Shown: one piece after another, positions 13,755-33,050 of the stretch
Layout of the letters: each line of letters begins with the position of its first letter
Position numbering within the stretch: position 1 is the first letter of the stretch
DNA from: Bauldia litoralis
GTDB lineage: Bacteria; Pseudomonadota; Alphaproteobacteria; Rhizobiales; Kaistiaceae
Assembly: GCF_900104485.1 (NCBI RefSeq)
Contig: NZ_FMXQ01000008.1
Coordinates: 186,001-250,000 of the forward strand
Direction of reading: 5' to 3'
Length of the DNA stretch: 64,000 nt
Translations under genes and position numbers: made by a program
Notes under the pieces: generated by a model
What the model was told of the DNA's origin: nothing
What the model saw: the letters and a program-made list of their open reading frames with translations, nothing else
Database searches by the model: none

Positions 13755-13772
13755 TGGGCCAGGCGCGCCGGG

Positions 13773-16446: not shown

Positions 16447-16512
16447 GCCACCCGGACTGGTCGCTGCAAGCCGACGACATTCTCGCAGATCCCGGCGCAG
16501 ATGATGCGGGCG

Positions 16513-18185: not shown

Positions 18186-18767
18186 CTACAGGCCGATGGC
18201 GTTGGCCCCGATCCGCAGCGCCTTGATGACGCGCCCGGGATTCTGGATCCGGAAGGTCTTCCTGATCCGGTCGTTGACCACCCAGGTCGCTGTCGTGCCG
18301 GCAACGAAGCGGGTGCTCTCACCGGCCTTCAGGGTGAACTTGCGACCCATATAGTCGATCTCCGCCGACCCTTCGAGCACGTAGATGTCCTCGTCGACGC
18401 TGTAATGCCAGACGAAGCTGCCGGGGCCGACCGCCTGCCAGATGCCGCTCGACGAAGCCCAGAAGTCGGAGCGTTCGAAGACGGCCATGCTGAATTCCGG
18501 CGATCCGGAAAGGATCCAGGAGGGGTCGATTGGCGACGGCTGCAATTCGTGCGGCTGCGCCAACCCGAGGTCGGCCTTGTAGCCGATCACCGCCGGCATG
18601 CGGGTGGCGAGGCCGATCGCCCCGACCACCGCCAGGGTGACGATCACGGTCGTGGCCACGAGTCCGAAACGCCGTGTCTTCTTCGGTGCGCTGTCCGTTC
18701 CCGCGCCACCGAAGGCGTCGGTGAGCGCCGGGCCGGACGCCGTTGATTGCCGATAGTTGCTCATCAT
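18186..18767 (-). CDS. Membrane-anchored cupin protein
   Basis: This 193-residue protein has a short cytoplasmic N-terminus, one transmembrane helix at about residues 34-55 (FGLVATTVIVTLAVVGAIGL), and a C-terminal cupin beta-barrel of the EutQ/ureidoglycine-aminohydrolase-like type (FVWHYSVDEDIYVLEGSAEI, then FTLKAGESTRFVAG). The cupin should face the periplasm. The His/Glu metal set of enzymatic cupins is incomplete in what I see, so it may bind a ligand rather than catalyse. The start overlaps the stop of the acyl carrier gene (ATGA), and AGGAGG lies just before it, so the two are co-translated. A role in handling a carrier-derived product is inferred. Confidence 0.75.
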   Translation of the reverse strand: MMSNYRQSTASGPALTDAFGGAGTDSAPKKTRRFGLVATTVIVTLAVVGAIGLATRMPAVIGYKADLGLAQPHELQPSPIDPSWILSGSPEFSMAVFERSDFWASSSGIWQAVGPGSFVWHYSVDEDIYVLEGSAEIDYMGRKFTLKAGESTRFVAGTTATWVVNDRIRKTFRIQNPGRVIKALRIGANAIGL

Positions 18768-19060
18768 GCGGCCTCCTGCGGATCCAGTAGTCGGGAGACG
18801 AGGGTGGTGATGCTGTCGACGGAGCGGAAATTCTCCGGCGTGATCTGGACAGGGGGGATGGTCACGTCGAATTCGGCCTCGACCGCCAGCATGAGGTTCA
18901 CCATGTCGACCGAGGTCAGGCCGATTTCGATGAGGTCCTGACCGGTCGAGATCGGAGGGCGGCCGGTTTGCCCGTCGGGGTGATTCCTCGCGAGGATGTC
19001 CTCCACGAGGGCCACGAGCCTGTCTTCCGAAGCGGAAACGAAAGTCTTGAGCGGTTGCAT
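18764..19060 (-). CDS. Acyl/aminoacyl carrier protein (carrier 1)
   Basis: This 98-residue phosphopantetheine-binding carrier protein has the attachment site IGLTSVDMVNL with Ser50, followed by the usual helix (LMLAVEAEFDVTIPP) and a last helix near SVDSITTLVSRLL. The length is typical (75-100). It is not a fatty-acid-synthesis AcpP (no DSLD motif) but resembles stand-alone carriers. It lies divergent from the acyl-CoA-dehydrogenase and amino acid:carrier ligase genes. In Bradyrhizobium and Agrobacterium such a carrier next to the ligase is the acceptor, so this is one of two candidate acceptors here. It overlaps the cupin gene. Confidence 0.88.
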   Translation of the reverse strand: MQPLKTFVSASEDRLVALVEDILARNHPDGQTGRPPISTGQDLIEIGLTSVDMVNLMLAVEAEFDVTIPPVQITPENFRSVDSITTLVSRLLDPQEAA

Positions 19061-19161
19061 GGGCGGATACCTGCGGTCGCGTTTTCTAAAGTCACGGCAT
19101 CCTTTTATCTCCGGCGAATTCTGTCAATTTTTAATCAATATCCACGACCATGTCGCTGAAA

Positions 19162-19210
19162 TTAACCTTACGACTTAAAGTTAAGATCCGCACATAGACA
19201 ATTTGAGTCA
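19162..19210. promoter_or_regulatory. Candidate shared operator upstream of the carrier/dehydrogenase genes
   Basis: Within the AT-rich 287-base divergent region 19061-19347, bases 19162-19187 read TTAACCTTACG then ACTTAAAGTTAAGAT, with a TTAAC...GTTAA dyad. TTTGAGTCA follows at 19202-19210. Very similar elements occur at 30531-30564 ahead of the acyl-CoA synthetase gene. This suggests a common regulator or promoter class. No experimentally known box was recognised. Confidence 0.4.
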
Positions 19211-19347
19211 GATTCGAGAATAGATTTCTTGAATTGCTTCAAAATTTGCACGAGTTTGTTTGCTGCGATCCTTGCTACCTATCGGAGAAGCTGCGGCGCG
19301 ATTGCATCGGAGCAAGATGGCAAGGGACCGAGCAGGAGAGGCACACC

Positions 19348-20589
19348 ATGACCGCGCTCGACATTACCAAGCCCGAATCCCGTCCAACCCGACCGCACGC
19401 CAACGGCAATGCCGTTCCGGCGGATGCCGTGTCTGCAACCCGCAAGGAGCGCGTCGAAGCGGCGGCCGCCATTGCCCGACAATACGCGCCCGAGGTCGAC
19501 ACGGCGGGACGGTTCCCCAAAGAGGCGATCGCGGCGATCCGCGAACAGCGGCTCTTCGGCATCATGATTCCCCGCGAGCTCGGCGGCGAGGGCGCCAGCG
19601 TCTCCGACGTTGTCGATGTCTGCTACCGGCTCGGCCAGACCTGCGCTTCGACCGCAATGATCTTCGCGATGCACCAGACCAAGGTCGCCTGCCTGGTCCG
19701 CCATGGGGCAAGCGATCCCTGGCATCGCAACCTGCTCCACCGCGTCGCGGCTGAACAACTGCTCCTCGCCTCGTCGACGACGGAGGGCAAGGCCGGCGGC
19801 AATGTCCGCTCCAGCGACGCCGCCATCGTTCGCGACGGCGATGCGATCAGTCTCGAGCGCGCCGCCACCGTCATCTCCTACGGCGCCTATGCCGACGGCG
19901 TGGTCACCACGGCCCGGCGTTCGGTCGAGGCCGAGTCCTCGGACCAGGTGCTCGTCGCCTTCCTCAAGGACGACTACACGCTGGAGCCGACTGTCTCCTG
20001 GGACACGCTTGGCATGCGCGGCACATGCAGCTCCGGCTTCGCGCTGAAGGCAACCGGTTCGGCCAGCCAGATCCTGCCGGTCTCCTATGACAAGATCCAC
20101 GCCCAGACCATGACGCCGGTCGCCCATCTTGCCTGGGCCGGGGTGTGGACCGGCATCGCCGCCGCGGCGGTCGAGAAGGCGCGGCTCTTCGTTCGTAACG
20201 CGGCGCGCCATTCGAAGGGTCAGTTGCCGCCGGCGGCGGCGCGCGTCACCGAGGCGAGCGCGTCGCTCCTCAAGCTGCAGAGCCTGATGGACGCGTCGCT
20301 TCGCCGCTTCGAGCAGGCCGCCCATGATGAACGGGTGCTCGGATCCTTCGACTTCCAGACTGCGATCAACCTGGTCAAGGTCGATGCGTCCGAGCTGGCG
20401 GTCGAGACCGTGATGACGGCCATGCGCGCCTGCGGATTGTCCGGCTATCGAAACGACGGCGATTTCACCATCGGCCGTCATCTGCGCGATGTGCTCTCGT
20501 CGCCGATCATGATCAACAACGATCGGATCATGGCGAATGCCGGCGCCTCGTCGTTGATGGTCGCCATCCCCGAATCCCTGCAGGGCTGA
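19348..20589 (+). CDS. Acyl-CoA dehydrogenase-like flavoprotein (possible aminoacyl-carrier oxidase)
   Basis: This 413-residue protein has the acyl-CoA dehydrogenase fold: an N-terminal helical domain (FPKEAIAAIREQRLFGIMIP and RELGGEGASVSDVVDV), a middle beta domain (LASSTTEGKAGGNVRSSDAA, WDTLGMRGTCSSGF), and a C-terminal helical domain ending with HLRDVLSSPIMINNDRI. ATG 19348 has AGGAG nine bases upstream; the longer frame from 19234 has no support. The next gene is the amino acid:carrier ligase, 60 bases away. Known relatives such as PltE oxidise an aminoacyl group while it is bound to a carrier, so a carrier-bound substrate rather than CoA is plausible. That is inference. Confidence 0.85.
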   Translation: MTALDITKPESRPTRPHANGNAVPADAVSATRKERVEAAAAIARQYAPEVDTAGRFPKEAIAAIREQRLFGIMIPRELGGEGASVSDVVDVCYRLGQTCASTAMIFAMHQTKVACLVRHGASDPWHRNLLHRVAAEQLLLASSTTEGKAGGNVRSSDAAIVRDGDAISLERAATVISYGAYADGVVTTARRSVEAESSDQVLVAFLKDDYTLEPTVSWDTLGMRGTCSSGFALKATGSASQILPVSYDKIHAQTMTPVAHLAWAGVWTGIAAAAVEKARLFVRNAARHSKGQLPPAAARVTEASASLLKLQSLMDASLRRFEQAAHDERVLGSFDFQTAINLVKVDASELAVETVMTAMRACGLSGYRNDGDFTIGRHLRDVLSSPIMINNDRIMANAGASSLMVAIPESLQG

Positions 20590-20649
20590 GGCCGACGGCC
20601 GGAGCCCCGAGAAACCGAACCCCTTGTCGAGTTGCGGAGTCCGACGATC

Positions 20650-21576
20650 ATGACCGTAGCCATCAGAACCACTGTTTCCGAATCGCCGGACCGGCAGGAT
20701 GCCCTTGCCGACGCCCTGTTCCATCCCATGGGTGTCGCCGGCGTCTATGCGCGCACCGGCCTCTACGAGGATATCGTCGAGCGCCTGACCGCATGGATTT
20801 CCGCCAAGCGCGAAGAGGGCACCGAGGTTCTTCGCTTTCCCCCGGTGATGAGCCGGCGCGACCTCGAGAAGCACGGCTACCTCAAGAGCTTCCCGAACCT
20901 GCTCGGCTGCGTCTGCGCCCTGCACGGGACGGAGGCCGATATCCGCGCCGCCGCCGATCTTCAGGCGACCGGCGGCGACTGGACCGCATCGCTGTCGCCG
21001 GCCGACATGGTGCTCAGCCCGGCCGCTTGCTACCCGGTCTATCCGCTGGCCGCCAGCCGCGGTCCGGTCACCCCCGGCGGCTGGCTGTTCGACGTCGCGT
21101 CGGATTGTTTCCGGCATGAGCCGTCCAGCGATCTCGATCGCTTCCAGTCCTTCCGGATGCGCGAATATGTCTGCATCGGCAGCGAGGACGAGGTCCTTGC
21201 CTTCCGCGACCGCTGGATGGCGAAGGCCGAGGAGCTGGCCGGCGAACTGGGGCTCCCCTGCGCCGTCAAGCCGGCAAGCGATCCCTTCTTCGGTCGCACG
21301 GGCCAGGTCATGGCGGTCAGCCAGATCCAGCAGGCGCTGAAGTTCGAGCTGTTGATCCCGCTCCACTCGGCCGAGAAGCCGACCGCCTGCATGAGCTTCA
21401 ACTGTCACCGCGATCACTTCGGAACGACCTGGGACATCAAGGACCAGTCGGGCGCTCCGGCCCATACCGCCTGTGTCGCCTTCGGCATGGACCGGCTGGC
21501 GGTGGCGCTGTTCTGGACCCATGGCCTCGACACGGCCGCATGGCCCCATGCGGTCCGCGATTCCCTGAAGCTCTGA
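20650..21576 (+). CDS. Amino acid--[acyl-carrier-protein] ligase (class II aaRS homologue)
   Basis: This 308-residue protein is a seryl-tRNA-synthetase-like catalytic core without a tRNA-binding arm. Class II motif 2 is seen as CFRHEPSSDLDRFQSFRMRE (residues 153-172) and motif 3 as FGMDRLAVALF (Arg282). Cys127, Glu172 and Cys275 have the same spacing as the zinc ligands Cys131, Glu176 and Cys279 that I recall for the Bradyrhizobium enzyme Bll0957. Members activate a small amino acid (Gly or Ala) with ATP and attach it to the phosphopantetheine arm of a neighbouring carrier protein. Two candidate carriers are encoded nearby. ATG 20650 is taken as the start; TTG 20632 is possible. A strong terminator follows. 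Confidence 0.92.
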   Translation: MTVAIRTTVSESPDRQDALADALFHPMGVAGVYARTGLYEDIVERLTAWISAKREEGTEVLRFPPVMSRRDLEKHGYLKSFPNLLGCVCALHGTEADIRAAADLQATGGDWTASLSPADMVLSPAACYPVYPLAASRGPVTPGGWLFDVASDCFRHEPSSDLDRFQSFRMREYVCIGSEDEVLAFRDRWMAKAEELAGELGLPCAVKPASDPFFGRTGQVMAVSQIQQALKFELLIPLHSAEKPTACMSFNCHRDHFGTTWDIKDQSGAPAHTACVAFGMDRLAVALFWTHGLDTAAWPHAVRDSLKL

Positions 21577-21583
21577 ACACGAC

Positions 21584-21604
21584 GGCTCGCGGCGACCGCG
21601 AGCC
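21584..21604 (+). terminator. Perfect 9-bp hairpin after the ligase gene
   Basis: GGCTCGCGG at 21584-21592 pairs exactly with CCGCGAGCC at 21596-21604 around CGA. It has no T-run of its own, but lies just before the T-tailed hairpin at 21631-21661, so the two probably act as a tandem end of transcript. Confidence 0.4.
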
Positions 21605-21630
21605 GATCACCTCGACCACGACAATGCCGG

Positions 21631-21661
21631 GCCTCGCGACCTCGTCGCGGGGCTTTTCGTT
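21631..21661 (+). terminator. Rho-independent terminator of the dehydrogenase-ligase operon
   Basis: GCCTCGCGAC (21631-21640) pairs with GTCGCGGGGC (21644-21653), with one G-T pair and a CTC loop. TTTTCGTT follows. The 10-bp GC-rich stem and T-run are the classic intrinsic terminator form. It separates the plus-strand operon from the minus-strand SDR gene ending at 21679. Confidence 0.8.
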
Positions 21662-21678
21662 GCAAATACCGGTGGGTT

Positions 21679-22413
21679 TCAGGCCGTGCTGCCGGCGTCG
21701 ACCGTCAGCACCGTACCGGTGATGCTGCGCCCGCCTTCGCCGAGCAGGAACTCTATGCTGCGGGCGACGTCGTCGACTTCCGTCAAGCGTCGCAGGGGGC
21801 TGCGGCGGACCAGGCGCGCGTGATGATCCTCGTCCATGCCGTTGGTCATGTCGGTGTCGATGAATCCCGGCGCGATCGCGTTGACCGTCACGCCGACCTT
21901 GCCCATCTCGCGGGCAAGCGAGCGGGTGAAGCCGACAAGGCTCGCCTTGGTCGCGCTGTAGACCGACAAGCCGCTATAGCCGTTCGAGGCGACGATCGAG
22001 GCGATGTTGATCACCCGCCCGGCGCCCTCGATCATCATCGAGCGCGTCACGTATTTGGTCAGGACGATCGGCGCCAGGGTGTTGAGCCGGATCAGGCCCT
22101 CGATCTGGGAATTGTGCATGTTGGCGAGCAGGCCCGACGTGCCGATGCCGGCATTGTTGACGAGGCCGTAGATAGCGCCCGACGACTTGCGGATATCGGT
22201 GACAAATGCCGGGATCGCGTCGGTGTCGGTCAAATCGAAGGACGCGAAGCGCAGCGCGCCGGTTCCCGCCTCGCCGACCGCGTCGATCGCGGCGGAGAGT
22301 TCGTCGGACTGCGACCTCGCAACGGCAATGACGCCGTAGCCGGCCGCGGCCAGCCGCGTTGCGATGCCGAGGCCCAGTCCCCGACTGCCGCCGGTCACGA
22401 TGACGTTATGCAT
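21679..22413 (-). CDS. FabG-like short-chain dehydrogenase/reductase
   Basis: This 244-residue classical SDR has the NAD(P) site VTGGSRGLGLGIA, the structural NNAG in LVNNAGIG, catalytic Ser in INIASIVAS and Tyr/Lys in YSATK, and the C-terminal GTVLTVDAGSTA. It is closest in form to 3-oxoacyl-carrier-protein reductases. Its start overlaps the end of the adenylating-enzyme gene by eight bases, and that gene overlaps carrier 2, so the three are one minus-strand operon. A keto-reduction on a carrier-bound intermediate is the natural inference. Confidence 0.88.
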   Translation of the reverse strand: MHNVIVTGGSRGLGLGIATRLAAAGYGVIAVARSQSDELSAAIDAVGEAGTGALRFASFDLTDTDAIPAFVTDIRKSSGAIYGLVNNAGIGTSGLLANMHNSQIEGLIRLNTLAPIVLTKYVTRSMMIEGAGRVINIASIVASNGYSGLSVYSATKASLVGFTRSLAREMGKVGVTVNAIAPGFIDTDMTNGMDEDHHARLVRRSPLRRLTEVDDVARSIEFLLGEGGRSITGTVLTVDAGSTA

Positions 22414-23803
22414 GGTCGCGGGCCAGCTTGCCGGCGGCCGTCACCGTCAGCGCCGGGACGAAGCGGATCGTTGCCGGCACCTTGTGCTGGGGCAGGGTGC
22501 CGCGGCAGAGATGGATGATCTCATCCTTGAGCGCATCGTCCCAGCCTTCGCCGGAAGCTGCCGGTTGGTTGTCGTTCAGGACGACTTCGGCGACGACGAT
22601 CGATCCCATGATCGGGCTCTTCCTTGCCTTGACCAGCGACATGCGAACGCCCTGGTGCCGGTTGATGACCGCCTCGACCTCTTCCGGGTGAACTTTCAGG
22701 CCGCCGACATTGATGATGCCGCCACGCCGGCCAACGAAATAGAAGCGGTCGCCGCGGCGCTCGATCATGTCGCCGGTGTCGATGAAGCCGTCCGCATCGG
22801 TGAGCGGTTCGGCGTTGCGGCCGAGATACCTATCGGCGCCGCGCGGCGAGCGAATGCGAAGCGAGCCGTCCTCGACCTTCATCGAGACATCGCCACCGCC
22901 TTCGATGAGGCTGGCCGGGAAGCCTTCGAGGCCATCGTCGACGGCGAAGCCGACTCCCGCCTCGGTCGATGCATAGGCATGGCCGATCGCCGCGTCGGGA
23001 AAGGTGTCGTGGAGGGCGTTGAGAATCGCCTGGTCCGCGATCTCGCCGGACAGCCGGATATAGTCCGGCGCGATCGCATTGGCCGTCGCGCACATGATCG
23101 TCCGGCGCCAATGCGACGGCGTTCCCGAGATGTGGGTGACGCCGCTGGCCGCCAGTCGATGGAGATGATCGACGATCGTTTCGCCGGCATGGGAGAGGAC
23201 GAGGGAACTGTCGCCCAGCATGGCGCGCAGGAAGATCTGCAGTCCGCCGTAGCGACGGATGTCATAGAAGGTCGCCCAGACCGTCGGCCGTTCGCGCGGT
23301 GGCGGCGTGGTGATCGCGGCGGTCAGGCCGTCCAGGCTGTGGACCACCATCTTGGGGACGCCGGTCGTGCCGGAGGTCAGCAGCACCCATTCGGTCGCGC
23401 ACGGTTCGCTCGGCGCTCCCTCGTATGCGGCGACGGGAAGGCCGCAGCCGACAACCGGCTTGCCGATCGCGGCGAAGGTCCCGGGATCGCGGTCCGAGAC
23501 GATCGCGTCGACCTCGGCGTCGTCGACGATCGCCGCGAGATAGTCGGGACGGAGGTCCGGTGGGGACAGCACCATGCGCCGCGCGACACCGTCGAGTTCG
23601 ATCACGGCGAGGGCAGCGGTCATCTGGTCGTCGGTGGCGATCAGGACAGATCGGCCGGCCAGGGTCTGGCGGTCGACGGCGAGGCTCGTCCCGACGGCGA
23701 TCGCGTCGAGGGAAACGCTCGCGTCGACGCCCAGGATGCGGCGGCCGGTGAGACCGGCGCCGCGCAGGATGCCGCCAAGCGTCCGCGGTCTAGTGTGCGC
23801 CAT
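22406..23803 (-). CDS. Stand-alone adenylating enzyme (ANL superfamily acyl/aryl/aminoacyl ligase)
   Basis: This 465-residue AMP-binding enzyme has the P-loop LLTSGTTGVPKMVV at residues 141-153, the A5-like HAYASTEAGVGF, the DGFIDTGDMIERRGDRFYFV hinge region, and the C-terminal catalytic Lys459 in TAAGKLARDHA. It is shorter than most family members (500-550) because the N-terminal domain is reduced, with no A1/A2-like segment. ATG 23803 overlaps the end of carrier 2 by 14 bases, so that carrier is the likely acceptor. The acyl or amino acid substrate cannot be read from the sequence. Confidence 0.85.
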   Translation of the reverse strand: MAHTRPRTLGGILRGAGLTGRRILGVDASVSLDAIAVGTSLAVDRQTLAGRSVLIATDDQMTAALAVIELDGVARRMVLSPPDLRPDYLAAIVDDAEVDAIVSDRDPGTFAAIGKPVVGCGLPVAAYEGAPSEPCATEWVLLTSGTTGVPKMVVHSLDGLTAAITTPPPRERPTVWATFYDIRRYGGLQIFLRAMLGDSSLVLSHAGETIVDHLHRLAASGVTHISGTPSHWRRTIMCATANAIAPDYIRLSGEIADQAILNALHDTFPDAAIGHAYASTEAGVGFAVDDGLEGFPASLIEGGGDVSMKVEDGSLRIRSPRGADRYLGRNAEPLTDADGFIDTGDMIERRGDRFYFVGRRGGIINVGGLKVHPEEVEAVINRHQGVRMSLVKARKSPIMGSIVVAEVVLNDNQPAASGEGWDDALKDEIIHLCRGTLPQHKVPATIRFVPALTVTAAGKLARDHA

Positions 23804-24044
23804 CCTCGTACAGCCTGACGAAGTCGCCGAAGGTGACGGGGAAGTTGACGTCATCCGACGCGGTGAAGGGGTCGTAGCCCAGCTTGTCTTCGAGATTGGC
23901 AACCAGCAGGGCAAAGCACAGCGAATCCAGACCGGAATCGGTCAGGACCAAGTTATCGTCCAGCGCGGCGATCTGTTTTTCTTGTTGTTTGGCAATGGTC
24001 TCTATCTGAGAGACGATCTTTTCTCTGGTCGTCATTTTAACCAT
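23790..24044 (-). CDS. Acyl carrier protein (carrier 2)
   Basis: This 84-residue phosphopantetheine carrier has its attachment site in LTDSGLDSLCFALLVANLE with Ser41, preceded by a lysine/glutamine-rich first helix and followed by a loop ending in the helix DFVRLYEDG. It differs clearly from carrier 1. It is the first gene of the minus-strand carrier-ligase-SDR operon and is translationally coupled to the adenylating enzyme. Met at codon 4 (MTTREK) is an alternative start. It probably receives the acyl group activated by the next gene. Confidence 0.88.
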   Translation of the reverse strand: MVKMTTREKIVSQIETIAKQQEKQIAALDDNLVLTDSGLDSLCFALLVANLEDKLGYDPFTASDDVNFPVTFGDFVRLYEDGAH

Positions 24045-24131
24045 CTGATCGAATTAAATTGTACTTAGACTGTAATAAAGAGGCGGATACGATACAAGTT
24101 GATTGACTATTCATGGTGAACGACGCCGCCG

Positions 24132-25004
24132 ATGGAATCCGAACCCAGAATCCGCTGCCGAGCGATCACGGAAGACGATCTCGATGGAGTGATCGCCCTG
24201 CTCATGCGCGGCTTCCCGATGCGCGATCGCGCCTACTGGGCGCGTGGTCTCGGCCGGCAGTCCGAGCGCATCGTGCCGGAGGGCGTTCTACGATACGGCT
24301 GCATGCTCGATCGGGGCGGCGAGGCGGTCGGCGTGCTGCTTGTGCTGTCCGGATCGGTGGAGATCGACGGCAGGACCGAGACCCGCTGCAACCTGTCGAG
24401 CTGGTATGTGGAGCCCGCGTTCCGGAGCTTCGCGCCCATGCTCGTGTCGGTGGCGCTGAAGAACAAAAACGTCACCTTCATGAACGTGACCCCGGCGAAA
24501 CACACCTGGCCGGTGGTCGAGGCGCAGGGCTTCGCGCCGTTCTGCCATGGCCAGTTCACCGCCTTTCCGTTTCTCAACCGGAGTCGAGGCGCTGTCCGGG
24601 TGAGCCGCGTCGATGCCGGCCAGACGCCGACGCAGTCCCTCGCATCGCCCGAACGCGACCTGCTGCGGGCCCATGCCGGCTATGGCTGCATCAGCCTTGT
24701 CTGCTCGACGCCGGATGGCGACGTTCCGTTCATCTTCCGGCCGTTCAAACGGTGGAAGGACCGGCTGCCCTGCATGCGGCTGATCTATTGCCGCGACATC
24801 GCGGATTTCGTCCGCTTCGCCGGACCGCTCGGCCGGCATCTGCTGATGCATGGCAGTCCCTGGGTGATCGTCGATTCCGACGGGCCGATCGACGGGCTGG
24901 TCGGCTTCTACCAGACCGAGAGCGGCCGCAAGTATTTCAGGGGGCCCAACAAGCCGCGGCTCGGCGATCTCGCCTATACCGAATTCGCCCTCTTCGGACC
25001 CTGA
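24132..25004 (+). CDS. GNAT-like acyltransferase family protein
   Basis: This 290-residue protein begins with a GNAT-type N-terminus (RCRAITEDDLDGVIALLMRG). A strand and loop follow (VGVLLVLSG, CNLSSWYVEPAFRSFAPML) that resemble the acyl-CoA site and the W-Y-V-x-P-x-x-R pattern of the fold. The C-terminal half (residues 170-290) is less recognisable and could be a second GNAT-like lobe. It is divergent from carrier 2 and 22 bases ahead of the ThDP-enzyme gene. An acyl transfer to or from a carrier-bound product is inferred; I do not recognise a characterised homologue. Confidence 0.6.
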   Translation: MESEPRIRCRAITEDDLDGVIALLMRGFPMRDRAYWARGLGRQSERIVPEGVLRYGCMLDRGGEAVGVLLVLSGSVEIDGRTETRCNLSSWYVEPAFRSFAPMLVSVALKNKNVTFMNVTPAKHTWPVVEAQGFAPFCHGQFTAFPFLNRSRGAVRVSRVDAGQTPTQSLASPERDLLRAHAGYGCISLVCSTPDGDVPFIFRPFKRWKDRLPCMRLIYCRDIADFVRFAGPLGRHLLMHGSPWVIVDSDGPIDGLVGFYQTESGRKYFRGPNKPRLGDLAYTEFALFGP

Positions 25005-25026
25005 CCCCCAGACAGGCACCCCCGCG

Positions 25027-26712
25027 ATGCATACGCCCCTGAAGACCCGGACCGCCGCCGAAGTTCTCGTCGACCAGCTCATCGCCAACGGCGTCGAGCA
25101 TGTCTTCTGCGTTCCCGGCGAGAGCTACCTCGGCGTCCTCGATGCGCTCTACGATCGCGACATCACCGTGACGGTCTGCCGGCAGGAGGGTGGGGCGGCG
25201 ATGATGGCCGATGCGATCGGCAAGGCGACCGGCAAGCCCGGCGTCTGTTTCGTCACCCGCGGGCCGGGCGCCACCAACGCGGCCGCCGGCATTCACATCG
25301 CCGACCAGGATTCGACGCCGATGATCATGTTCGTCGGCCAGGTCGACCGCCATGTCCGGGGACGCGGCGCCTTCCAGGAGATGGACTATCCGGCGGTCTT
25401 CGGCAGCATGACCCGGTGGACGACCGAGATCGACGACGCCACCCGCGTACCCGAACTCGTCTCGCGCGCCTTCCATGCCGCCACCGGCGGACGCCCCGGC
25501 CCGGTGGTGGTCGGACTGCCCGCCGACATGCTGCGCGAGCGCGTCTCCATCGACATCGCGCCGCCGTTCGAGCCGATCGAGGCGTCGCCCGGCAAGGCCG
25601 AGATGGCGCGACTCGAGGACTTGCTGGGCAAGGCCGAACGACCGCTGATGATCCTCGGCGGCACGCGCTGGACCGAGGACGCTTGTGACGCCGTTACGCG
25701 CTTCGCCGAGCGGCTTCATCTTCCGGTCGCCACCAGCTACCGGCGGCTGCCGCTCTTCGACCCGCTGCACCCCTGCTATGCCGGCGACCTCGGGCTCGGG
25801 CCGAACCCGAAGCTGATCGCGCGGGTCAAGGCGGCGGACCTCGTCATCCTCTGCAGTGGCCGGCTCGGCGATATTCCCTCGCAGGGCTACACCCTTCTCG
25901 ACATCCCCGGACCGCGTTGCAAGCTGGTCCATGTCCATCCGGCGTCGGAGGAACTCGGCCGGGTCTACCAGCCCCATCTCGCCATCCAGTCCGGGCCGGT
26001 GCGCTTTGCCGAGGCGCTGGAAACCATCGCCGCGCCCGGCGACATCGCCTGGCGCGCGGTGACCGACGCGACCCATGCCGAGTATCTCGACTGGACCGAA
26101 ACGGCGACTGACCAGCCCGGCGGAGTCAATCTCGGCGCGGTCATGGTCTGGATGCGCGACAACCTTCCGGTCGACACGATCCTTTGCAACGGCGCCGGCA
26201 ACTACGCCGCCTGGATTCATCGCTTCTACCGGTTCCGGCGCTTCGCCACCCACATCGCGCCGACCTCGGCGTCGATGGGCTACGGCATGCCGTCGGCGGT
26301 GGCGATGAAGCGGCTTCATCCGGACCGGACGGTGCTGTCCGTCAACGGCGACGGCGACTTCCTGATGAACGGGCAGGAGTTCGCCACGGCGGTCCAGTAC
26401 GACCTGCCGATCATCACCATCGTCTGCGACAACGGCATGTACGGCACCATCCGCATGCACCAGGAGCGGGAACACCCGGGCCGGGTGTCGGCGACCGACC
26501 TGCGCAATCCGGATTTCAGCGCCTATGCGCGTGCCTTCGGTGGCTTCGGCGTCACGGTCGAGAGGACCGAGGATTTCCCCGCCGCGTTTCGGGCGGCCGA
26601 GGACTCGGGCCAGCCGGCGATCATCCATCTCAGGATCGACCCGCAGGCGATTACCCCGTCGGCGACACTCGACGGCATCCGCGACCGCGCCCTGGCGGCT
26701 CGCCGGGACTGA
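25027..26712 (+). CDS. Thiamine diphosphate-dependent enzyme, acetolactate synthase-like
   Basis: This 561-residue protein has three domains. The N-terminal pyrimidine-binding domain has the catalytic Glu in VFCVPGESYLGVLDAL, then VTRGPGATNAAAGIHIAD. The central domain is around PLMILGGTRWTED. The C-terminal diphosphate domain has the ThDP signature SVNGDGDFLMNGQEFATAVQ, ending at ITIVCDNGMYG. No partner regulatory subunit gene is present, so it may be a dedicated pathway enzyme rather than biosynthetic IlvB. Possible reactions are acyloin formation or 2-oxoacid decarboxylation, which fits the aminotransferase encoded next to it on the other strand. The substrate is unknown. Confidence 0.88.
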   Translation: MHTPLKTRTAAEVLVDQLIANGVEHVFCVPGESYLGVLDALYDRDITVTVCRQEGGAAMMADAIGKATGKPGVCFVTRGPGATNAAAGIHIADQDSTPMIMFVGQVDRHVRGRGAFQEMDYPAVFGSMTRWTTEIDDATRVPELVSRAFHAATGGRPGPVVVGLPADMLRERVSIDIAPPFEPIEASPGKAEMARLEDLLGKAERPLMILGGTRWTEDACDAVTRFAERLHLPVATSYRRLPLFDPLHPCYAGDLGLGPNPKLIARVKAADLVILCSGRLGDIPSQGYTLLDIPGPRCKLVHVHPASEELGRVYQPHLAIQSGPVRFAEALETIAAPGDIAWRAVTDATHAEYLDWTETATDQPGGVNLGAVMVWMRDNLPVDTILCNGAGNYAAWIHRFYRFRRFATHIAPTSASMGYGMPSAVAMKRLHPDRTVLSVNGDGDFLMNGQEFATAVQYDLPIITIVCDNGMYGTIRMHQEREHPGRVSATDLRNPDFSAYARAFGGFGVTVERTEDFPAAFRAAEDSGQPAIIHLRIDPQAITPSATLDGIRDRALAARRD

Positions 26713-26739
26713 GCGGGGCAGGGGACTCCGGGCACCGGT

Positions 26740-27615
26740 TCAGCGGTGGGCGAAGTCCCAGTAGAGCTTGCGGGCCTTGGCGTAGAACGGGCCGGGCTGG
26801 AGTTCCCGGTCGTCGATCCGGGTGACCGGCATCGCCTTCGAGAAATTGCCGGTCGAGAAGATCTCGTCGGCCGCCTGGAAGTCGGCAAAGGTCAGGGTCT
26901 TCTCGATCACCGTGTTGCCGTCCTCGCGGAGCAGGCCGATCATCCGCTGGCGCGTGATGCCGTTCAGGAAGGTGCCGTTGGGAACTGGCGTGTAGACGAC
27001 ACCGTCCCTGGCCATGAAGACATTGGAATTGCCGAGTTCGGCGACGTTGCCCAGCATGTCGCGCATGACGCAGTTGGTGAATCCGCGACCATGGGCTTCG
27101 AGCATGGCGCGCGAGTTGTTGGGATAGAGGCAACCGGCCTTGGCCTTGACCGGCGCGGTCTCGTCGGTCGGGCGGCGGAAGGGCGAGAGCGTGATCGACA
27201 TGCCCTTCGGCTCAGGCATCGGCGCCTCGTACATGCACAGGCACCAGCGGGTCGATTCCGGATCGAAGCGGACACCGCCGCCGGGGCCACCCGCCTCCGC
27301 CCAGTACATCGGCCGGATATAGAGCGCCGCATCCGGATCGAAGCGGCGAAGACCCTCCTTGGCCAGCGCCATCCATTCCACCTCGCTGACCACCGGCTTG
27401 AGGCGGAGGTGGGTCGCGGACTGGTTGACCCGGGCGAAATGCAGGTCGAGGTCGGGGGTGACGCCCTCGAACGCCCGGCCACCGTCGAAGACCGCCGACC
27501 CGAGCCAGGTGCCATGGGTGCGAACGCCCATGATCGCGACGTTGCCCTCGTGCCAGTCTCCGCCGAAAAACGTCCAGGTCTTTGATGGCGCCGCGGTGAG
27601 GTTCTCGCTGGTCAT
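26740..27615 (-). CDS. Class IV aminotransferase, branched-chain aminotransferase-like
   Basis: This 291-residue PLP enzyme of fold type IV has the PLP lysine in APVKAKAGCLYPNNSRAMLE and the cofactor-binding VAELGNSNVFMARDG. FNGIT-type residues appear as GTFLNGITRQRM, and EIFSTGNFSKAMPVTRID closes the site. The length matches BCATs (about 290-310). The start is MTSENL at 27615, with GGAAGG ten bases upstream. It may supply or consume a 2-oxoacid used by the ThDP enzyme; this is inferred from adjacency, as the genes are convergent. Confidence 0.88.
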   Translation of the reverse strand: MTSENLTAAPSKTWTFFGGDWHEGNVAIMGVRTHGTWLGSAVFDGGRAFEGVTPDLDLHFARVNQSATHLRLKPVVSEVEWMALAKEGLRRFDPDAALYIRPMYWAEAGGPGGGVRFDPESTRWCLCMYEAPMPEPKGMSITLSPFRRPTDETAPVKAKAGCLYPNNSRAMLEAHGRGFTNCVMRDMLGNVAELGNSNVFMARDGVVYTPVPNGTFLNGITRQRMIGLLREDGNTVIEKTLTFADFQAADEIFSTGNFSKAMPVTRIDDRELQPGPFYAKARKLYWDFAHR

Positions 27616-27695
27616 CGCTCTTTTCCTTCCCACGCGTTGCGCGCGTTTGGCCTATTATGGGCCGATCGATAGTGTAGAGTCAGGTCGTCTTCCCC

Positions 27696-28625
27696 GTGCC
27701 GATAGATCCCCACGCCCGGCGCTTTCTCGACATGGTGGCGATTGCGCCATCGGCCGATCCGGCCCGCATGACCGTTGAGGAGCGGCGCGAGTCCTTTGTC
27801 AAGCTGATGGCGCTTTCCGGCTCGCAGGTCGCGGTCGGCGGTGTCGAGGATCGCACGATCCCCGGACCCGGCGGCCCGTTGTCGATTCGCCTCTACCGCC
27901 CCGTTTCCGACATGGAAGCCGCGCTGCCGGCCCTGGTCTTCTTTCACGGCGGCGGCCTGGTCGCCGGCAGTCTCGAGACCCATGACGCGCTCTGCCGGAC
28001 GCTCGCCGGAGAGAGCGGCGTCATCGTGATCGCCGTCGACTACCGCCTCGCGCCCGAGCATCCGTTTCCGGCCGCCATCGAGGACGCAAATGCGGCCACC
28101 GCCTGGGTGATGGCCCATGCCGCGTCGCTCGGCATCGACCCCGACCGAATCGCCGTCAGCGGCGATTCCGGTGGCGCCACGCTGGCGACCGTCGTCTGCC
28201 GCGAGGCGCGGGGCGGGGACGGGCCGGCGATAGCCCTGCAACTGCTTCTCTGTCCCGTGCTCGACCTGGTTGCCGAGACGCCGTCGCGGCAGGAATTCGC
28301 CAGCGGCTACCTTCTCGATCGGGCGATGATGCGGCGCGACCTCGAGCACTACGGCCCCTGCGATCCCCTCGACCCCCGGGTGTCGCCGCTGCGCGCGCCG
28401 GATCTCGCCGGCATGCCGCGGACGATCATTCATTCGGCCGAATTCGATCCGCTGCGCGACGAGGACCGGGCCTATGCCGAGCGCCTGATGCAGGCCGGTG
28501 TCGCGGTCGATCACACCTGCCATCCGGGGATGATCCATCATTTCTACGGGCTGACCGGAATCGTCCCCGCCGCCCGGACCAGCCTTGCGGCGATCTGCCG
28601 GGGGCTTGGCGACGCGCTGTCCTAG
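27696..28625 (+). CDS. Alpha/beta hydrolase fold-3 (HSL-type esterase)
   Basis: This 309-residue serine hydrolase of the hormone-sensitive-lipase family has the oxyanion motif VFFHGGGLVAGSLETHD, the nucleophile elbow GDSGGATLA, the acid in EFDPLRDE and the His in HPGMIHHFYG. YRLAPEHPFPAAIEDA is the family signature. The start is GTG 27696. No signal peptide is seen, so it acts in the cytoplasm. In this setting it could act as a thioesterase or esterase on the pathway product, but it may be unrelated. Confidence 0.87.
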   Translation: MPIDPHARRFLDMVAIAPSADPARMTVEERRESFVKLMALSGSQVAVGGVEDRTIPGPGGPLSIRLYRPVSDMEAALPALVFFHGGGLVAGSLETHDALCRTLAGESGVIVIAVDYRLAPEHPFPAAIEDANAATAWVMAHAASLGIDPDRIAVSGDSGGATLATVVCREARGGDGPAIALQLLLCPVLDLVAETPSRQEFASGYLLDRAMMRRDLEHYGPCDPLDPRVSPLRAPDLAGMPRTIIHSAEFDPLRDEDRAYAERLMQAGVAVDHTCHPGMIHHFYGLTGIVPAARTSLAAICRGLGDALS

Positions 28626-28638
28626 GCGCGCGACAGTC

Positions 28639-30453
28639 TCAGAGCCGGACCCGACCCGCGACGATGCGGGCGTAGAGGTCGCTATCGAGCCTTGCATAGG
28701 CTTTCTCGGTTGGATCGTCGAAATACAGCACGTCGGCGATGGCCTCCGGATCGAAGCCCTCGGAGGCCAGATGAAAGGTCTTCGGCTTGAACGTCTCGGT
28801 CACTTCGAGTTCCGCCCGGATACGCAGGAAGAGCGGCCGCGCATAGGCAGGCAGCCGGTCGTCGAGATGGGCGTGGAGGGTGGCGAGGTCGAAGTCGTCG
28901 GCAATCTCCAGCGCCGCCATGCCGGCGCGACCGTCGGCGCCGGGCACAGCGACGCCATAGACCTGCGCATCGAGGACGCCGGGGCAGGCGGCAATCGCCG
29001 CATGGACCTCCAGCGTCGAGACATTCTCGCCTTTCCAGCGAAACGAACCGCCGACGCGGTCGACGAAGTAGAAGAAGCCTTTCTCGTCCTGGCGCATCAG
29101 GTCGCCGGTGCGAAACCAGGCGTCGCCGGGGGCGAAGACGTCGCGCAGGACCTTGCCCTCGGTTTCGTCGTCGCTGGTATAGCCCTCGAAACGCGTGCCG
29201 CCATCGCCGATCCGGCCGATCGCCTCGCCGACCTCGTTGCGGGCGCAGCGGATGCAGAGGCCGGCGGTGTCGCGAACCGGGGCGTTGGCGTCGGCGTCGA
29301 AACGGACGATCGCCGCCGGGAAGCGATGGGCGAGATAGGGCGGGATCCGCCCGATCGAGCCCGGCTTGCCCTCGAGGTTGTAGAGCGAGAAGGTGCCTTC
29401 GGTTGCCGCATAGAATTCGAGAATCTGCGGGATGCGGAACCGCTCCTGGAACGCCTCCCACACATCGGCGCGCAGGCCGTTGCCACAGCACAGCCGCAGC
29501 CTGTGCCGCCGCTCGGCCGGGGAGGGGAGTGCTGCGTTCAGGTAGCGGCACAACTCGCCGATATACTGGAACAGCGTGCAGTCCCAGCGGACGATGTCGT
29601 TCCAGAATTCGCCGACCGAGAAGCGCTCGCGCAGGACCACGGAGCCACCGCCGACCAGCACGCTTGCCGGCGCCACGATGCCGCCGATGCTGTGATACAT
29701 CGGCAGGCAATCATACATGCGGTCGTCCGGCCCGACATCGGTCATCCCGGCGAACCAGTACGCCCAGGCCATGATCCGCCGATGGCTGATATTGGCGGCT
29801 TTCGGCAGGCCCGTCGTCCCCGAGGTGTAGATGCACAAGGCGCGGTCGGAGAGCGTCACCGGCCGTGTCTCGTCAGCCACCAGCGGCGCGCCGTCATAGG
29901 CGCCGGCGACCAGCGGCGTCAGGGTGCTGTCGCCCGCATCCGGCCCGCCGCCGATCGTCCAGGTTTTCGGGGCAGCATGGGTCAGTTCCGGCGACGCGAT
30001 GGCGGCGCGGTAGTCGTCGGCGACGACGAGATGCTTCGGCGCGACCACGCCGATGCAGTGGGCCAGAGATGCCGCCGTCAGGTTGGTGTTGAGCAGCGCG
30101 ACGACGCCACCGACCCGGCTGACGCCGAGCCAGAAGGCCATGTAGTCGGGGCAGTTCGGCATCAGCAGGCAGACGACGTCGCCGGGCGCGATCCCCTGGT
30201 CAAGCGCCCAGCGCGCATAGCGGCGCGACCGTTCGGCAAGTGCCGAGAAGCTGAGGCATTCGCGATCCGACAGGAGGGCAGGGGCATCGCCGAAACGCTC
30301 GGCCAGTTCGTCGATCACCACCGGCAGGGTGCGCAGCGGCGCGTCGTCGAGGCGAGCGGTCATTTCGAGCGCCCGCAGCCAGCCCTTCGACGATCCGCCC
30401 GGACTGGCGTCACGCGCCGGGCTGGGCGCGTCGCGGCTCATCGGAGTAGCCAT
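28639..30453 (-). CDS. Long-/very-long-chain acyl-CoA synthetase (FATP/FadD6-like)
   Basis: This 604-residue AMP-forming synthetase has the P-loop CIYTSGTTGLPKAANIS, EFYAATEGTFSLYNLEGKPG (the FATP-type A5 region), GDLMRQDEKGFFYFVDRVG, and a C-terminal FKPKTFHLASEGFDP. These mark the FATP/very-long-chain synthetase branch, not the aryl-CoA ligases. The start MATPMS at 30453 is preferred; upstream in-frame codons to 30540 are arginine-rich and unlike the family. It would supply acyl-CoA, perhaps for an acylated product. Its upstream region shares a motif with the carrier 1/dehydrogenase region. Confidence 0.88.
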   Translation of the reverse strand: MATPMSRDAPSPARDASPGGSSKGWLRALEMTARLDDAPLRTLPVVIDELAERFGDAPALLSDRECLSFSALAERSRRYARWALDQGIAPGDVVCLLMPNCPDYMAFWLGVSRVGGVVALLNTNLTAASLAHCIGVVAPKHLVVADDYRAAIASPELTHAAPKTWTIGGGPDAGDSTLTPLVAGAYDGAPLVADETRPVTLSDRALCIYTSGTTGLPKAANISHRRIMAWAYWFAGMTDVGPDDRMYDCLPMYHSIGGIVAPASVLVGGGSVVLRERFSVGEFWNDIVRWDCTLFQYIGELCRYLNAALPSPAERRHRLRLCCGNGLRADVWEAFQERFRIPQILEFYAATEGTFSLYNLEGKPGSIGRIPPYLAHRFPAAIVRFDADANAPVRDTAGLCIRCARNEVGEAIGRIGDGGTRFEGYTSDDETEGKVLRDVFAPGDAWFRTGDLMRQDEKGFFYFVDRVGGSFRWKGENVSTLEVHAAIAACPGVLDAQVYGVAVPGADGRAGMAALEIADDFDLATLHAHLDDRLPAYARPLFLRIRAELEVTETFKPKTFHLASEGFDPEAIADVLYFDDPTEKAYARLDSDLYARIVAGRVRL

Positions 30454-30706: not shown

Positions 30707-32011
30707 ATGCGAAGCGAAACGATCGCAATTCACGGTGGCTATGACACCGATCCGGTCACCAAGGCGGTGACCGCCCCGATTTACCAGACCGTCGCCTATG
30801 AGTTCGACAGCGCCGATCACGGCGCATCGCTGTTCAACCTTGAGGTCGAGGGCTATCGCTACAGCCGGATCAGCAACCCGACCACCGAGGTGCTGGAGCG
30901 TCGCGTCGCGCTGATGGAGGGCGGTCTCGCAGCCCTTGCGGTCAGCACCGGCCAGGCGGCGCTGCACTATGCGCTGGTCAATCTCGCCGACCATGGCGGC
31001 AACATCATTTCCGTGCCGCAGCTCTACGGCACCACCCACACGCTTCTCGCCCATGTCCTGCCGCGGCAGGGGATCTCGGTCCGCTTCGCCGCGACCGACC
31101 GAGCGGAGGACATTGCCCCGCTCATCGACGACGACACCCGCGCCGTCTTCTGCGAAACCGTCGGCAATCCGGCCGGCAATATCTGCGACATCGAGAAGAT
31201 CGCCGCCGTGGCGCACAGCGCCGGCGTACCGCTGATCGTCGACAACACGGTGGCGACGCCGATCCTGCTGCGGCCGATCGAGCATGGCGCGGACATCGTC
31301 GTTCATTCGCTGACCAAGTTCATGGGCGGCCACGGCACGACGATGGGCGGCATCATCGTCGACAGCGGCAAGTTCCCCTGGACGGAGCATGGCCGGCGAT
31401 TCCCGATGTTCAGCGCGCCCGACGCCTCCTATCACGACATGGTCTATTCCGACGCCTTCGGCCCCGGCGCCTATATCGCCCGCGCCCGCAGCGTCTACCA
31501 GCGCACCACCGGCGCGGTGCTGCCGCCGATGAGCGCCTTCCAGCTTATGCAGGGCATCGAGACCGTGGCGCTGCGTGTCGAGCGGCATGTCGAGAATGCC
31601 AGACGGGTGGCGGAGTTCCTGCGCGACGATCCGCGCACGGCCTGGGTCTCCTATGCCGGTTTTCCCGAGAGCCCGTATCACGGGCTGGTCGACAAGTATC
31701 TCGGCGGCCGCGTTCCCTCGCTCCTGACCTTCGGCGCGCGCGGCGGCTTCGAGGGCGGCAAGGCCTTCTATGACGCGCTGACGCTGGTCAAGCGTCTGGT
31801 CAATATCGGCGACGCCAAGTCGCTTGCCTGTCATCCCGCCTCGACGACCCATCGCCAGATGACCGTCGAGGAGCAGCGGGGCGCTGGCATCACCCCGGAC
31901 ACCATCCGTCTCAGCATCGGCATCGAGCATATCGACGACATCCTCGCCGATATCGACCAGGCGCTGGACGCATCGATGGCGACTGACGAGACGGCACAGG
32001 CGGCCGAGTAA
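30707..32011 (+). CDS. metY: O-acetylhomoserine aminocarboxypropyltransferase (sulfhydrylase)
   Basis: This 434-residue PLP enzyme of the Cys/Met metabolism family has SETIAIHGGYDTDPVTKAV at the start, YSRISNPTTEVLERRVALME, and the PLP lysine in HSLTKFMGGHGTTMGG. The insert GKFPWTEHGRRFPMFSAPDA is typical of MetY rather than MetB or MetC, as is the length. It makes homocysteine from an O-acylhomoserine and sulfide. ATG 30707 has GGGAAG upstream and starts where homology begins; an in-frame ATG at 30665 adds an unlikely basic leader. The acyltransferase gene follows 16 bases later. Confidence 0.88.
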   Translation: MRSETIAIHGGYDTDPVTKAVTAPIYQTVAYEFDSADHGASLFNLEVEGYRYSRISNPTTEVLERRVALMEGGLAALAVSTGQAALHYALVNLADHGGNIISVPQLYGTTHTLLAHVLPRQGISVRFAATDRAEDIAPLIDDDTRAVFCETVGNPAGNICDIEKIAAVAHSAGVPLIVDNTVATPILLRPIEHGADIVVHSLTKFMGGHGTTMGGIIVDSGKFPWTEHGRRFPMFSAPDASYHDMVYSDAFGPGAYIARARSVYQRTTGAVLPPMSAFQLMQGIETVALRVERHVENARRVAEFLRDDPRTAWVSYAGFPESPYHGLVDKYLGGRVPSLLTFGARGGFEGGKAFYDALTLVKRLVNIGDAKSLACHPASTTHRQMTVEEQRGAGITPDTIRLSIGIEHIDDILADIDQALDASMATDETAQAAE

Positions 32012-32027: not shown

Positions 32028-33050
32028 TTGTTTGTCGTGCTCAATCAGGATCTGCAAGGACATCCGATCAGCGGCGACGGGCAACTGGGCGACGCCGGTC
32101 GCCGGACGCTTGGCGCATCGGATACCGGCTGTCTTGAGATCGGGCTGGTCAACAACATGCCGGATGCCGCGCTACGGCCGACGGAACGCCAGTTCTCGCG
32201 ACTTCTCGCGGCGGCGGCCGGCAGGCATACGGTTCGGCTCCATTTCTACTCGCTCGACAGCATCCGCCGTGGCGACGAGGCCCGTGCCTATCTGCGGACG
32301 ACATATGGCGACCTCGCCGAACTCCGGTCGGCCGGGCTCGATGCCCTGATCGTGACCGGCTGCGAGCCGTGCGCGCCGCACCTGAGCGACGAGCCTTACT
32401 GGCAGGATCTTGCGGGCATTGTCGACTGGGCGGAGGACAACACGACCACCACCCTGTGGTCCTGCCTCGCCGCCCATGCCGCGGTGCTGCACATGGACGG
32501 CGTCGAGCGGCATCGCCTGGCGGACAAGCGCTTCGGGGTCCTGGATTGCGACGTGGTCTCGGACAGCCCGCTGGTCGCCGGCATCCGCTCGCCGTTCCGC
32601 GTATCCCATTCGCGCTGGAACGAATTGCGGGCGGACGAACTGACGGCCGCCGGCTACCGCATCCTGACGCGGTCCACCGCCGGCGACGTCGACATGTTCG
32701 CCCGGGAGCGGAAGAGCCTGTTCCTGTTCTTCCAGGGGCACCCGGAATACACCGCCTATTCGCTGATGGGCGAGTACCGCCGGGACGTCGGCCGCTACCT
32801 GCGCGGTGAAATGGCCCGCTATCCGGCCACGCCGCTCGGCTATTTCGACAGCAAGACCGAGCAGCGACTGGCCGCTTTCGGCGAGAAGGCGGCGGGGGCC
32901 CGCGATCCGGCTCTGCTGGAGGAGTTTCCGGGAAGCGGCATGCTGCGTCCCAGGTCCGTCCGCAGGCTGACAACGTCCGGTGTCGCCGTCATCCGCAACT
33001 GGCTGTCATCGATCGCCACGCGCAAGGGAGAAGGCGCATGGGCGTCATGA
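32028..33050 (+). CDS. Homoserine O-acyltransferase, MetA-type
   Basis: This 340-residue glutamine-amidotransferase-fold enzyme has LEIGLVNNMPDAALRPTERQF, characteristic of MetA proteins. The catalytic Cys146 is in TTLWSCLAAHAA, and His238 and Glu240 are in FFQGHPEYTAYSLMGE, matching the Cys/His/Glu of E. coli MetA. The acyl-specificity region reads TGCEPCAPHLSDEPYW, different from E. coli, so acetyl or succinyl use is not decided. The TTG start at 32028 has GGAGG ten bases upstream. It is co-transcribed with metY and overlaps the flavin reductase gene by 13 bases. Confidence 0.85.
   Translation: MFVVLNQDLQGHPISGDGQLGDAGRRTLGASDTGCLEIGLVNNMPDAALRPTERQFSRLLAAAAGRHTVRLHFYSLDSIRRGDEARAYLRTTYGDLAELRSAGLDALIVTGCEPCAPHLSDEPYWQDLAGIVDWAEDNTTTTLWSCLAAHAAVLHMDGVERHRLADKRFGVLDCDVVSDSPLVAGIRSPFRVSHSRWNELRADELTAAGYRILTRSTAGDVDMFARERKSLFLFFQGHPEYTAYSLMGEYRRDVGRYLRGEMARYPATPLGYFDSKTEQRLAAFGEKAAGARDPALLEEFPGSGMLRPRSVRRLTTSGVAVIRNWLSSIATRKGEGAWAS

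Follow-up and report, generated by a model that had tools for sequence, protein, structure and literature searches.

The closest described relative of the system considered here is Bll0957 of Bradyrhizobium, an amino acid:[carrier protein] ligase for which the PDB entries include 3mey, 3mf1 and 4h2s and which we take to use glycine; a ligase of the same family from Agrobacterium presumably uses alanine. The work on Bll0957 covers the charging of the carrier, and in the literature reached the downstream genes and the product are undescribed. The gene with the next locus number, bll0958, is given as an acyl-CoA dehydrogenase gene in the accessible part of one report (PMC10888616), and the portion of a 2022 review available to us states that the role of the amino acids on these carriers remains unknown (PMC9437257). 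Here we analyse a stretch of 64,000 nucleotides of Bauldia litoralis (contig NZ_FMXQ01000008.1, positions 186,001 to 250,000; hereafter the window), in which a first-pass annotation, made from the sequence alone, had placed a probable non-ribosomal pathway around a ligase of this family (20650..21576, + strand). About ten genes of this region form a set that co-occurs with one lineage of the ligase, lineage B, in several bacterial families.

Other described systems share parts of this set. RedW and PigA, the prolyl-carrier dehydrogenases, are acyl-CoA dehydrogenase (ACAD)-like enzymes that act on an aminoacyl carrier, but the flavoprotein of the window scores far under their cut-offs (32 against 650 for RedW, 41 against 500 for PigA). 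The triacsin and azaserine routes (Tri29-31/Tri22, AzsP/Q/S/F) have, like the window, a ligase, a free carrier, a GNAT and an ACAD-family enzyme, which there makes C=N on a glycine-like group bound to the carrier; in the text accessible to us, AzsF and Tri22 dehydrogenate a hydrazinoacetyl-carrier in a route with a GNAT, a carrier and an AMP ligase (PMC10445470). According to the same text these routes differ in that their ligase is of the AMP-binding class and their substrate is hydrazinoacetate, and no hydrazine-forming enzyme family was found among the window genes scanned. Finally, pseudaminic-acid and other glycan clusters contain triads of a carrier, an adenylase and a short-chain dehydrogenase/reductase (SDR) with the same gene order and homologous proteins as a triad of the window, but their adenylases are 29-43% identical, sugar genes are adjacent and no ligase core occurs in the stretches fetched. 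What was known is the ligase family with its carriers; what is new is the conserved extended gene set around the lineage-B ligase, which we did not find in open-licence literature, nor did that literature yield a paper on the downstream pathway of these ligases or their neighbours.

The ligase and its two lineages

The ligase has 308 amino acids and scores 462.3 bits against NF005479 of NCBIfam (curated cut-off 357), and it is the single NF005479-type gene found in this genome. Its residues 9-307 align without gaps to residues 33-331 of PDB 3mey (Bll0957; E 4.8e-141) with 209 of 299 residues identical (70%) and, as in Bll0957, the protein is limited to the class II core and has no tRNA-binding domain. 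C127, E172 and C275 align with the Cys, Glu and Cys of 3mey that we take to be its zinc ligands, and they are conserved in all 54 ligases of the two lineages described below and also in both outliers left aside. The first-pass annotation had read this gene as an aminoacyl-tRNA synthetase-like ligase with a Cys127/Glu172/Cys275 zinc triad, and this reading stands: profile and alignment both place 20650-21576 in the amino acid:[carrier protein] ligase family.

We compared 56 loci in which a gene caller found the ligase, made up of 17 named contigs, 38 of 40 regions taken from genomes and the window itself. The caller, whose training set consisted of 13 window genes, overlooked some others: the ligase of L100 and L102 and the ACAD gene of L100 were shown by tblastn, and most or all genes were missed in the lower-GC loci L142, L143 and L148. 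A quick tree separated lineage A (24 rows) from lineage B (30 rows, including the window) with SH-aLRT supports of 94 on the A branch and 99 on the B branch, two of the 56 loci (L037 and L078) being left out of the lineage counts. Twelve positions distinguish the lineages. At position 277, two residues from Cys275, lineage B and Bll0957 have Ala and lineage A has Gly, as does a homologue on a Priestia plasmid that is encoded next to genes for an alanine permease and an alanine racemase. Because the window ligase shares Ala277 with Bll0957, which we take to use glycine, it should load glycine. By extension, lineage B would be glycine-type and lineage A probably alanine-type, the two being separable by genome context.

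In 54 of the 56 loci the gene immediately upstream of the ligase encodes an ACAD-like flavoprotein (19348..20589, + strand, in the window). A carrier protein, CP1 (18764..19060, - strand), was called at most four genes from the ligase in 45; among the other loci are truncated contigs and cases where the caller overlooked a short gene. The adjacency of ACAD and ligase, and the order of the triad described below, exceed chance. In lineage A the order is CP1-ACAD-ligase-DUF1839-GH2-like, DUF1839 adjoining the ligase in all 24 rows; this trait changes once on the tree, and DUF1839 is not mentioned, among the matches listed, in literature on these ligases or their neighbours. Among named records this operon occurs on plasmids of Rhizobium, Azospirillum and Mycetohabitans, with GH2 annotated in Mycetohabitans alone. 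The lineage-A operon has the carrier-ACAD-ligase core in common with the window and differs from it in Gly277 and in its DUF1839 and GH2-like partners. The neighbours of lineage B are rearranged yet recurrent, and comprise the triad of a second carrier, CP2 (23790..24044, - strand), an adenylating enzyme (AMPb; 22406..23803, - strand) and a FabG-like SDR (21679..22413, - strand), a GNAT, an alpha/beta hydrolase (ABH), a thiamine diphosphate (ThDP) enzyme with an aminotransferase and a cupin, and a FATP-like acyl-CoA synthetase (FATP) beside MetY and MetX. From synteny CP1 would be the partner of the ligase. The earlier proposal that the ligase charges a neighbouring carrier would, on the same grounds, apply to CP1 rather than to CP2, which belongs to the adenylase/SDR triad.

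Co-occurrence of the set with lineage B

The first-pass annotation had suggested comparing the gene neighbourhoods of ligase homologues, and within lineage B this comparison revealed conserved co-occurrence: the ligase, the ACAD-like flavoprotein, CP1, GNAT, CP2, adenylase, SDR, FATP and MetY co-occur as a set. We drew 398 genomes of the window's phylum, 28 of which have a ligase over the cut-off, and scored in each genome the best 4 candidates for AMPb and up to 6 for GNAT, a sensitivity to which every absence given here is tied. AMPb matched with E<1e-160 in 14 of the 398 genomes and GNAT with E<1e-50 in the same 14, all of them ligase-positive. Lineage B accounts for thirteen of these: the tree places 12 of them there, the window included, and a tblastn identity of 62% adds G280. 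The remaining genome is G284.

The other genes were followed in a panel of 49 genomes, made up of all 28 ligase-positive genomes and 21 of the 370 others, ligase-free and of the same order. Within this panel MetY reaches 815-887 bits in the 13 lineage-B genomes and in no others; two genomes of family f109, both lineage A, come next with 663 and 658, and all further scores are 524 or less. FATP scores 884-1036 bits in the 13 lineage-B genomes and G284 (two genomes without a ligase follow at 843 and 812), ABH 411-513 bits in 10 of the 13 (next 312), and the ThDP enzyme more than 1020 bits in 7 of the 13, not including the six genomes of genus g43. The top 13 aminotransferase scores (487-600) are also those of the lineage-B genomes, but its co-occurrence with the ligase is weak because the gap to the ligase-free and lineage-A genomes, at 471 and less, is small. 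Hypergeometric values are 1.8e-18 for AMPb and 3.8e-12 for MetY, with relatedness ignored, and within-genus contrasts in the panel are few (6 versus 3 genomes in g43, 3 versus 2 in g74).

By contrast, among the 15 lineage-A-type genomes of the draw, strong matches to AMPb, GNAT and FATP are absent from 14 and a close MetY is absent from all. Since lineage A has other neighbours, the set belongs to one ligase lineage and, as far as the sequences compared indicate, is a property of lineage B and not of the whole ligase family. Ligase homologues without these neighbours, which the first-pass annotation had said would count against its reading, do therefore occur, in lineage A (24 of 54 loci), whereas lineage B keeps the set.

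Genus g43, probably Bradyrhizobium by synteny with the named Bradyrhizobium contig L023, carries the set in dispersed form. Its six ligase-positive genomes have separate loci for ligase-GNAT, for FATP-CP2-AMPb-SDR and for MetY with ABH and aminotransferase; the last spans about 11-14 kb in five genomes and is on different contigs in the draft G204, and in G061 and G426 the dispersed loci share one contig, hundreds of kilobases apart. The comparison within the genus covers the three ligase-free g43 genomes listed (G293, G310 and G378), in which no close matches to AMPb, GNAT, FATP, MetY, ABH or the aminotransferase were found. With its members scattered in this way in g43, the set cannot owe its co-occurrence to linkage alone. 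The inference that all the genes first listed serve one pathway is narrowed by these results: the set accompanies the ligase even when unlinked, but the ThDP enzyme, at the count given above, is accessory and the hydrolase is likewise missing from part of lineage B. A co-occurring set that some genomes keep as a cluster and others scatter offers a concrete route to the purpose of the loaded carrier.

Members of the set and the pathway they may form

Each neighbour family named in the first-pass annotation was recovered as an open frame of that family with homologues elsewhere. A codon model also calls the window genes, but it was trained on the same genes and so is not independent proof. Protein alignments used 34 of 54 rows for ACAD, 14 of 16 for GNAT, 12 of 18 for FATP and 8 of 9 for MetY. 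CP1 has a PP-binding score of 31.6 bits (cut-off 20.8) and reaches 57.4 bits against NF005480, under the cut-off of 72. The flavoprotein matches PF02771 (46.9 bits, cut-off 22.9) and PF00441 (28.4, cut-off 22.4), its middle domain scoring 16.9 against 33.3. In an alignment to 8i4p, I389 and A259 occupy its catalytic-Glu positions, which we take to be the columns holding Glu376 in MCAD and Glu254 in IVD; I389 is invariant across the 34 aligned rows. For its structure model (predicted local distance difference test, pLDDT, 88.5) Foldseek ties the monooxygenases DszC, TdsC and KijD3 with acyl-CoA dehydrogenases; as to a group D flavin monooxygenase, the fold is thus matched equally by both families, and a flavin reductase lies near few loci.

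The SDR of the triad was assigned from family scans and gene order, and the adenylase, a short ANL enzyme, from family scans and the genome profile. CP2, with a PP-binding score of 20.7 bits against a cut-off of 20.8, was assigned from gene order and holds a D-S-L site. The order CP2>AMPb>SDR is kept in 22 of 23 loci, the exception being L076, where the gene caller missed CP2 and tblastn finds it at 83%. Seven distant triads were checked, and four of them lie within sugar clusters (L143 and L161-L163), that of L143 being a pseudaminic-acid cluster with an Antibiotic_NAT-family gene. Two of these four, on Paracoccaceae plasmids, adjoin glycosyltransferase and acyltransferase genes. Of the other three of the seven, the triad of L142 is followed by a hexapeptide-repeat transferase. 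Weaker AMPb matches (E 1e-107 to 8e-64) in G146, G321, G475 and G113, which have no ligase match, were treated as distant triads and not as members of the set. Because four of the seven lie in sugar clusters, the triad, by analogy, probably supplies a short acyl group, which would tie the carrier-adenylase-SDR module of several glycan clusters to acyl supply. An amino-acid-activating adenylase, with the invariant D181 as amine-binding Asp, was considered but is not favoured; the related L143 adenylase aligns gap-free to MenE and has Arg where MenE has its His. In L162 (Azospirillum brasilense Sp7 p3, 8450-13937) a triad followed by a ketoacyl-ACP synthase III lies in a pseudaminic-acid/flagellin island near pseI.

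The GNAT-like gene (24132..25004, + strand, start 24132 or 24189), assigned from a structure model and the genome profile, has no Pfam GNAT match over cut-off (best Acetyltransf_9, 12.2 of 25 bits, E 0.19). The model (pLDDT 86.3) has a tandem GNAT fold and thus bears out the family name given at first pass. Its best VIA match is the tandem glucosamine N-acetyltransferase 4zm6 (Z 14.1, root-mean-square deviation 5.2, 256 aligned), tied with Eis (6p3v; Z 13.6, 4.6, 238 aligned) and many other GNATs, and because of these ties the structure does not single out an acceptor.

Further along are the accessory ThDP enzyme of the PRK08199 subfamily (25027..26712, + strand; 869.7 bits, cut-off 539), a class IV aminotransferase (26740..27615, - strand; PRK13356, 469.9 bits, cut-off 262), the HSL-type, LipP1-like ABH (27696..28625, + strand; 332.7 bits, below the cut-off of 350, with Abhydrolase_3 at 237 bits) and FATP (28639..30441, - strand, start 30441 or up to 30540; PRK08279, 730.1 bits, cut-off 625). 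The right border first drawn at 30453 proved too short, as MetY and MetX beyond it belong to the set. MetY (30707..32011, + strand, start 30665 or 30707) is a MetY-like gamma-replacement enzyme dependent on pyridoxal phosphate that scores 574.2 bits against TIGR01326, the O-acylhomoserine sulfhydrylase family (cut-off 495.1), and 632.6 bits against the equivalog PRK06084, under its cut-off of 790. It is adjoined by a MetA-type homoserine O-acyltransferase, here called MetX (32028..33050, + strand; NF003776, 412.9 bits, cut-off 358). Of the 16 lineage-B MetY loci fetched, two break off at MetY and the remaining 14 have MetX at most 3 kb away. Some fungal MetY relatives use carbon or nitrogen nucleophiles, although a literature search gave no confirmation of this.

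We consider, with a probability of roughly 0.5, that this region holds, in clustered form, an undescribed lineage-B ligase pathway with the following chemistry, the membership of the set coming from the comparison and each chemical step being what we infer from the protein families. The ligase would adenylate glycine and load it onto CP1, and the flavoprotein would oxidise the CP1-bound glycyl thioester at its C-N bond or oxygenate the nitrogen; AzsF and Tri22, as far as the accessible text describes them, offer a parallel, since they oxidise a group resembling glycine while it is bound to a carrier. The adenylase could load a short oxo or hydroxy acid onto CP2 and the SDR set its hydroxyl group, giving an acyl donor, and the tandem GNAT might then form an amide between the acyl thioester (on CP2 or CoA) and an amine. 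MetX and MetY would convert homoserine into a gamma-substituted amino acid, and the aminotransferase, FATP, ThDP enzyme and hydrolase may supply or trim further parts. The end product could be a small N-acylated amino-acid metabolite or a group destined for a glycan. We suggest only tentatively that this is a new class of natural products of free-living and symbiotic alphaproteobacteria, built on two separately loaded carriers, in which glycine, loaded by the aminoacyl-tRNA synthetase-derived ligase, is turned while tethered into a reactive imine or oxime by a flavoprotein that lacks the usual base, and GNAT joins it both to a carrier-bound hydroxyacyl group and to an amino acid from a MetY-type gamma-substitution.

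Several observations weigh against such a pathway. G284 has the triad, GNAT and FATP together with a lineage-A ligase and no close MetY; relatives of FATP and the aminotransferase occur also in ligase-free genomes, and close orthologues of ABH and the ThDP enzyme are absent from some lineage-B genomes. In the triads of L147 and L148 no sugar family was found in the single flanking gene scanned per locus. At the flavoprotein, alignments place no catalytic Glu base at either usual ACAD position, and the modelled fold appears to fit a monooxygenase as well as a dehydrogenase. Finally, MetX and MetY may belong to methionine synthesis, since MetX is the sole HTS-type gene in the window's genome and sulfate-assimilation genes (PAPS-reductase and APS-kinase) lie near the set in L077.

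This last point leads to an improbable alternative, that there is no single pathway and the ligase core hitchhikes beside methionine-synthesis and lipid genes. It would agree with a single-copy MetX and with L077 and L101, where the ligase immediately precedes MetY-MetX, but the co-occurrence holds without linkage in g43, and what disfavours it is that the three ligase-free g43 genomes, which presumably still make methionine, are without a close MetY (best 513 bits or none at 1e-150). A somewhat less improbable possibility is an amino-acid lipid, for which FATP would give long-chain acyl-CoA and the tandem GNAT would N-acylate glycine or glycyl-CP1. FATP is indeed tied to the triad, as FATP-CP2-AMPb-SDR, in six g43 loci, and N-myristoyltransferases, which are glycine acylators, are among the Foldseek matches of GNAT; these rank, however, under Eis and other tandem GNATs, the relatives of the triad suggest sugar acylation and the role of MetY is left unaccounted for.

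Decoration of a glycan is unlikely too, though less so than the preceding two: in this reading the genes at 8542-18057 would make a surface polysaccharide, and GNAT or the hydrolase would transfer acyl or aminoacyl groups from both carriers to one of its amino sugars. Genes for Wzz, a Wzx-like protein, a GT4, a UDP-sugar dehydrogenase and a GINT1-domain protein do lie upstream of the set, distant triads occur in pseudaminic-acid, flagellin-glycan or glycosyltransferase clusters, and the best, albeit tied, VIA match of GNAT acts on glucosamine. The polysaccharide genes are not, however, conserved with the ligase: GINT1 is present at 4 loci, orf404 is confined to the window and a single locus of the same genus, and the sole sugar gene among the few flanking genes scanned in the g43 loci is one deacetylase. 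Nor does decoration account for MetY, the aminotransferase and FATP.

Neighbouring genes and related loci

To the gene list of the first-pass annotation we add an accessory Cupin_3 (EutQ-like) protein with a hydrophobic N-terminal stretch (18186..18767, - strand), overlapping CP1 by 4 bases; its relatives adjoin the aminotransferase in L030, L100, L146 and L157 and are present in L075 and L076 too. At the other end, a flavin reductase gene (33038..33571, + strand) overlaps MetX and is a doubtful member, as relatives near the gene set were found only in L036, L146 and L157 besides the window; with so few occurrences it was not adopted as a dedicated partner of the flavoprotein. The window also encodes, at 8542-18057, a UDP-sugar dehydrogenase, a polysaccharide lyase, Wzz, a Wzx-like protein, a GT4, an orphan open reading frame (15232-16446) and a GINT1-domain protein, a relative of which flanks the gene set in L098 and L099 too. 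In the Bradyrhizobium-type loci L023, L073 and L092-L096, MtnA- and MtnP-like genes (IF-2B, PNP_UDP_1) lie upstream of CP1. In the accessible part of a report on a B. diazoefficiens phaR mutant at low oxygen, levels of bll0957, bll0958 and bll1105 (metZ) are raised (PMC10888616); as a possible MetY orthologue, bll1105 is only suggestive here.

The Priestia aryabhattai plasmid p-LAD4 (L149, 8085-16644) carries genes for AcpS, a carrier, an ACAD and a ligase beside an ATP-grasp enzyme, an alanine permease and an alanine racemase, and looks like a locus for an alanine-derived metabolite, possibly with self-resistance. On a plasmid of Streptomyces sp. NBC_00557 (L151, 5992-23825) a 33% identical ligase relative lies beside a carrier, an ACAD, a 3-hydroxyacyl-CoA dehydrogenase, an acyltransferase and a ketosynthase; this arrangement resembles what we take to be an aminomalonyl-carrier cassette, the ligase standing as if in place of the usual adenylase. 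In G290 a lineage-A ligase match (G290:C23:92354-93265) has one in-frame TAA and is either a decayed copy or an error. More distant ligase-like proteins of 401-444 amino acids occur in L164 and L166-L169, with no match to a carrier or ACAD. Among genomes whose ligase is below the cut-off, 12 of 16 have a weak GNAT match, as do 13 genomes without such a ligase, and in L164 (8941-11543) and L169 (8782-11434) the ligase-like proteins, of 401-414 amino acids, adjoin tandem GNATs.

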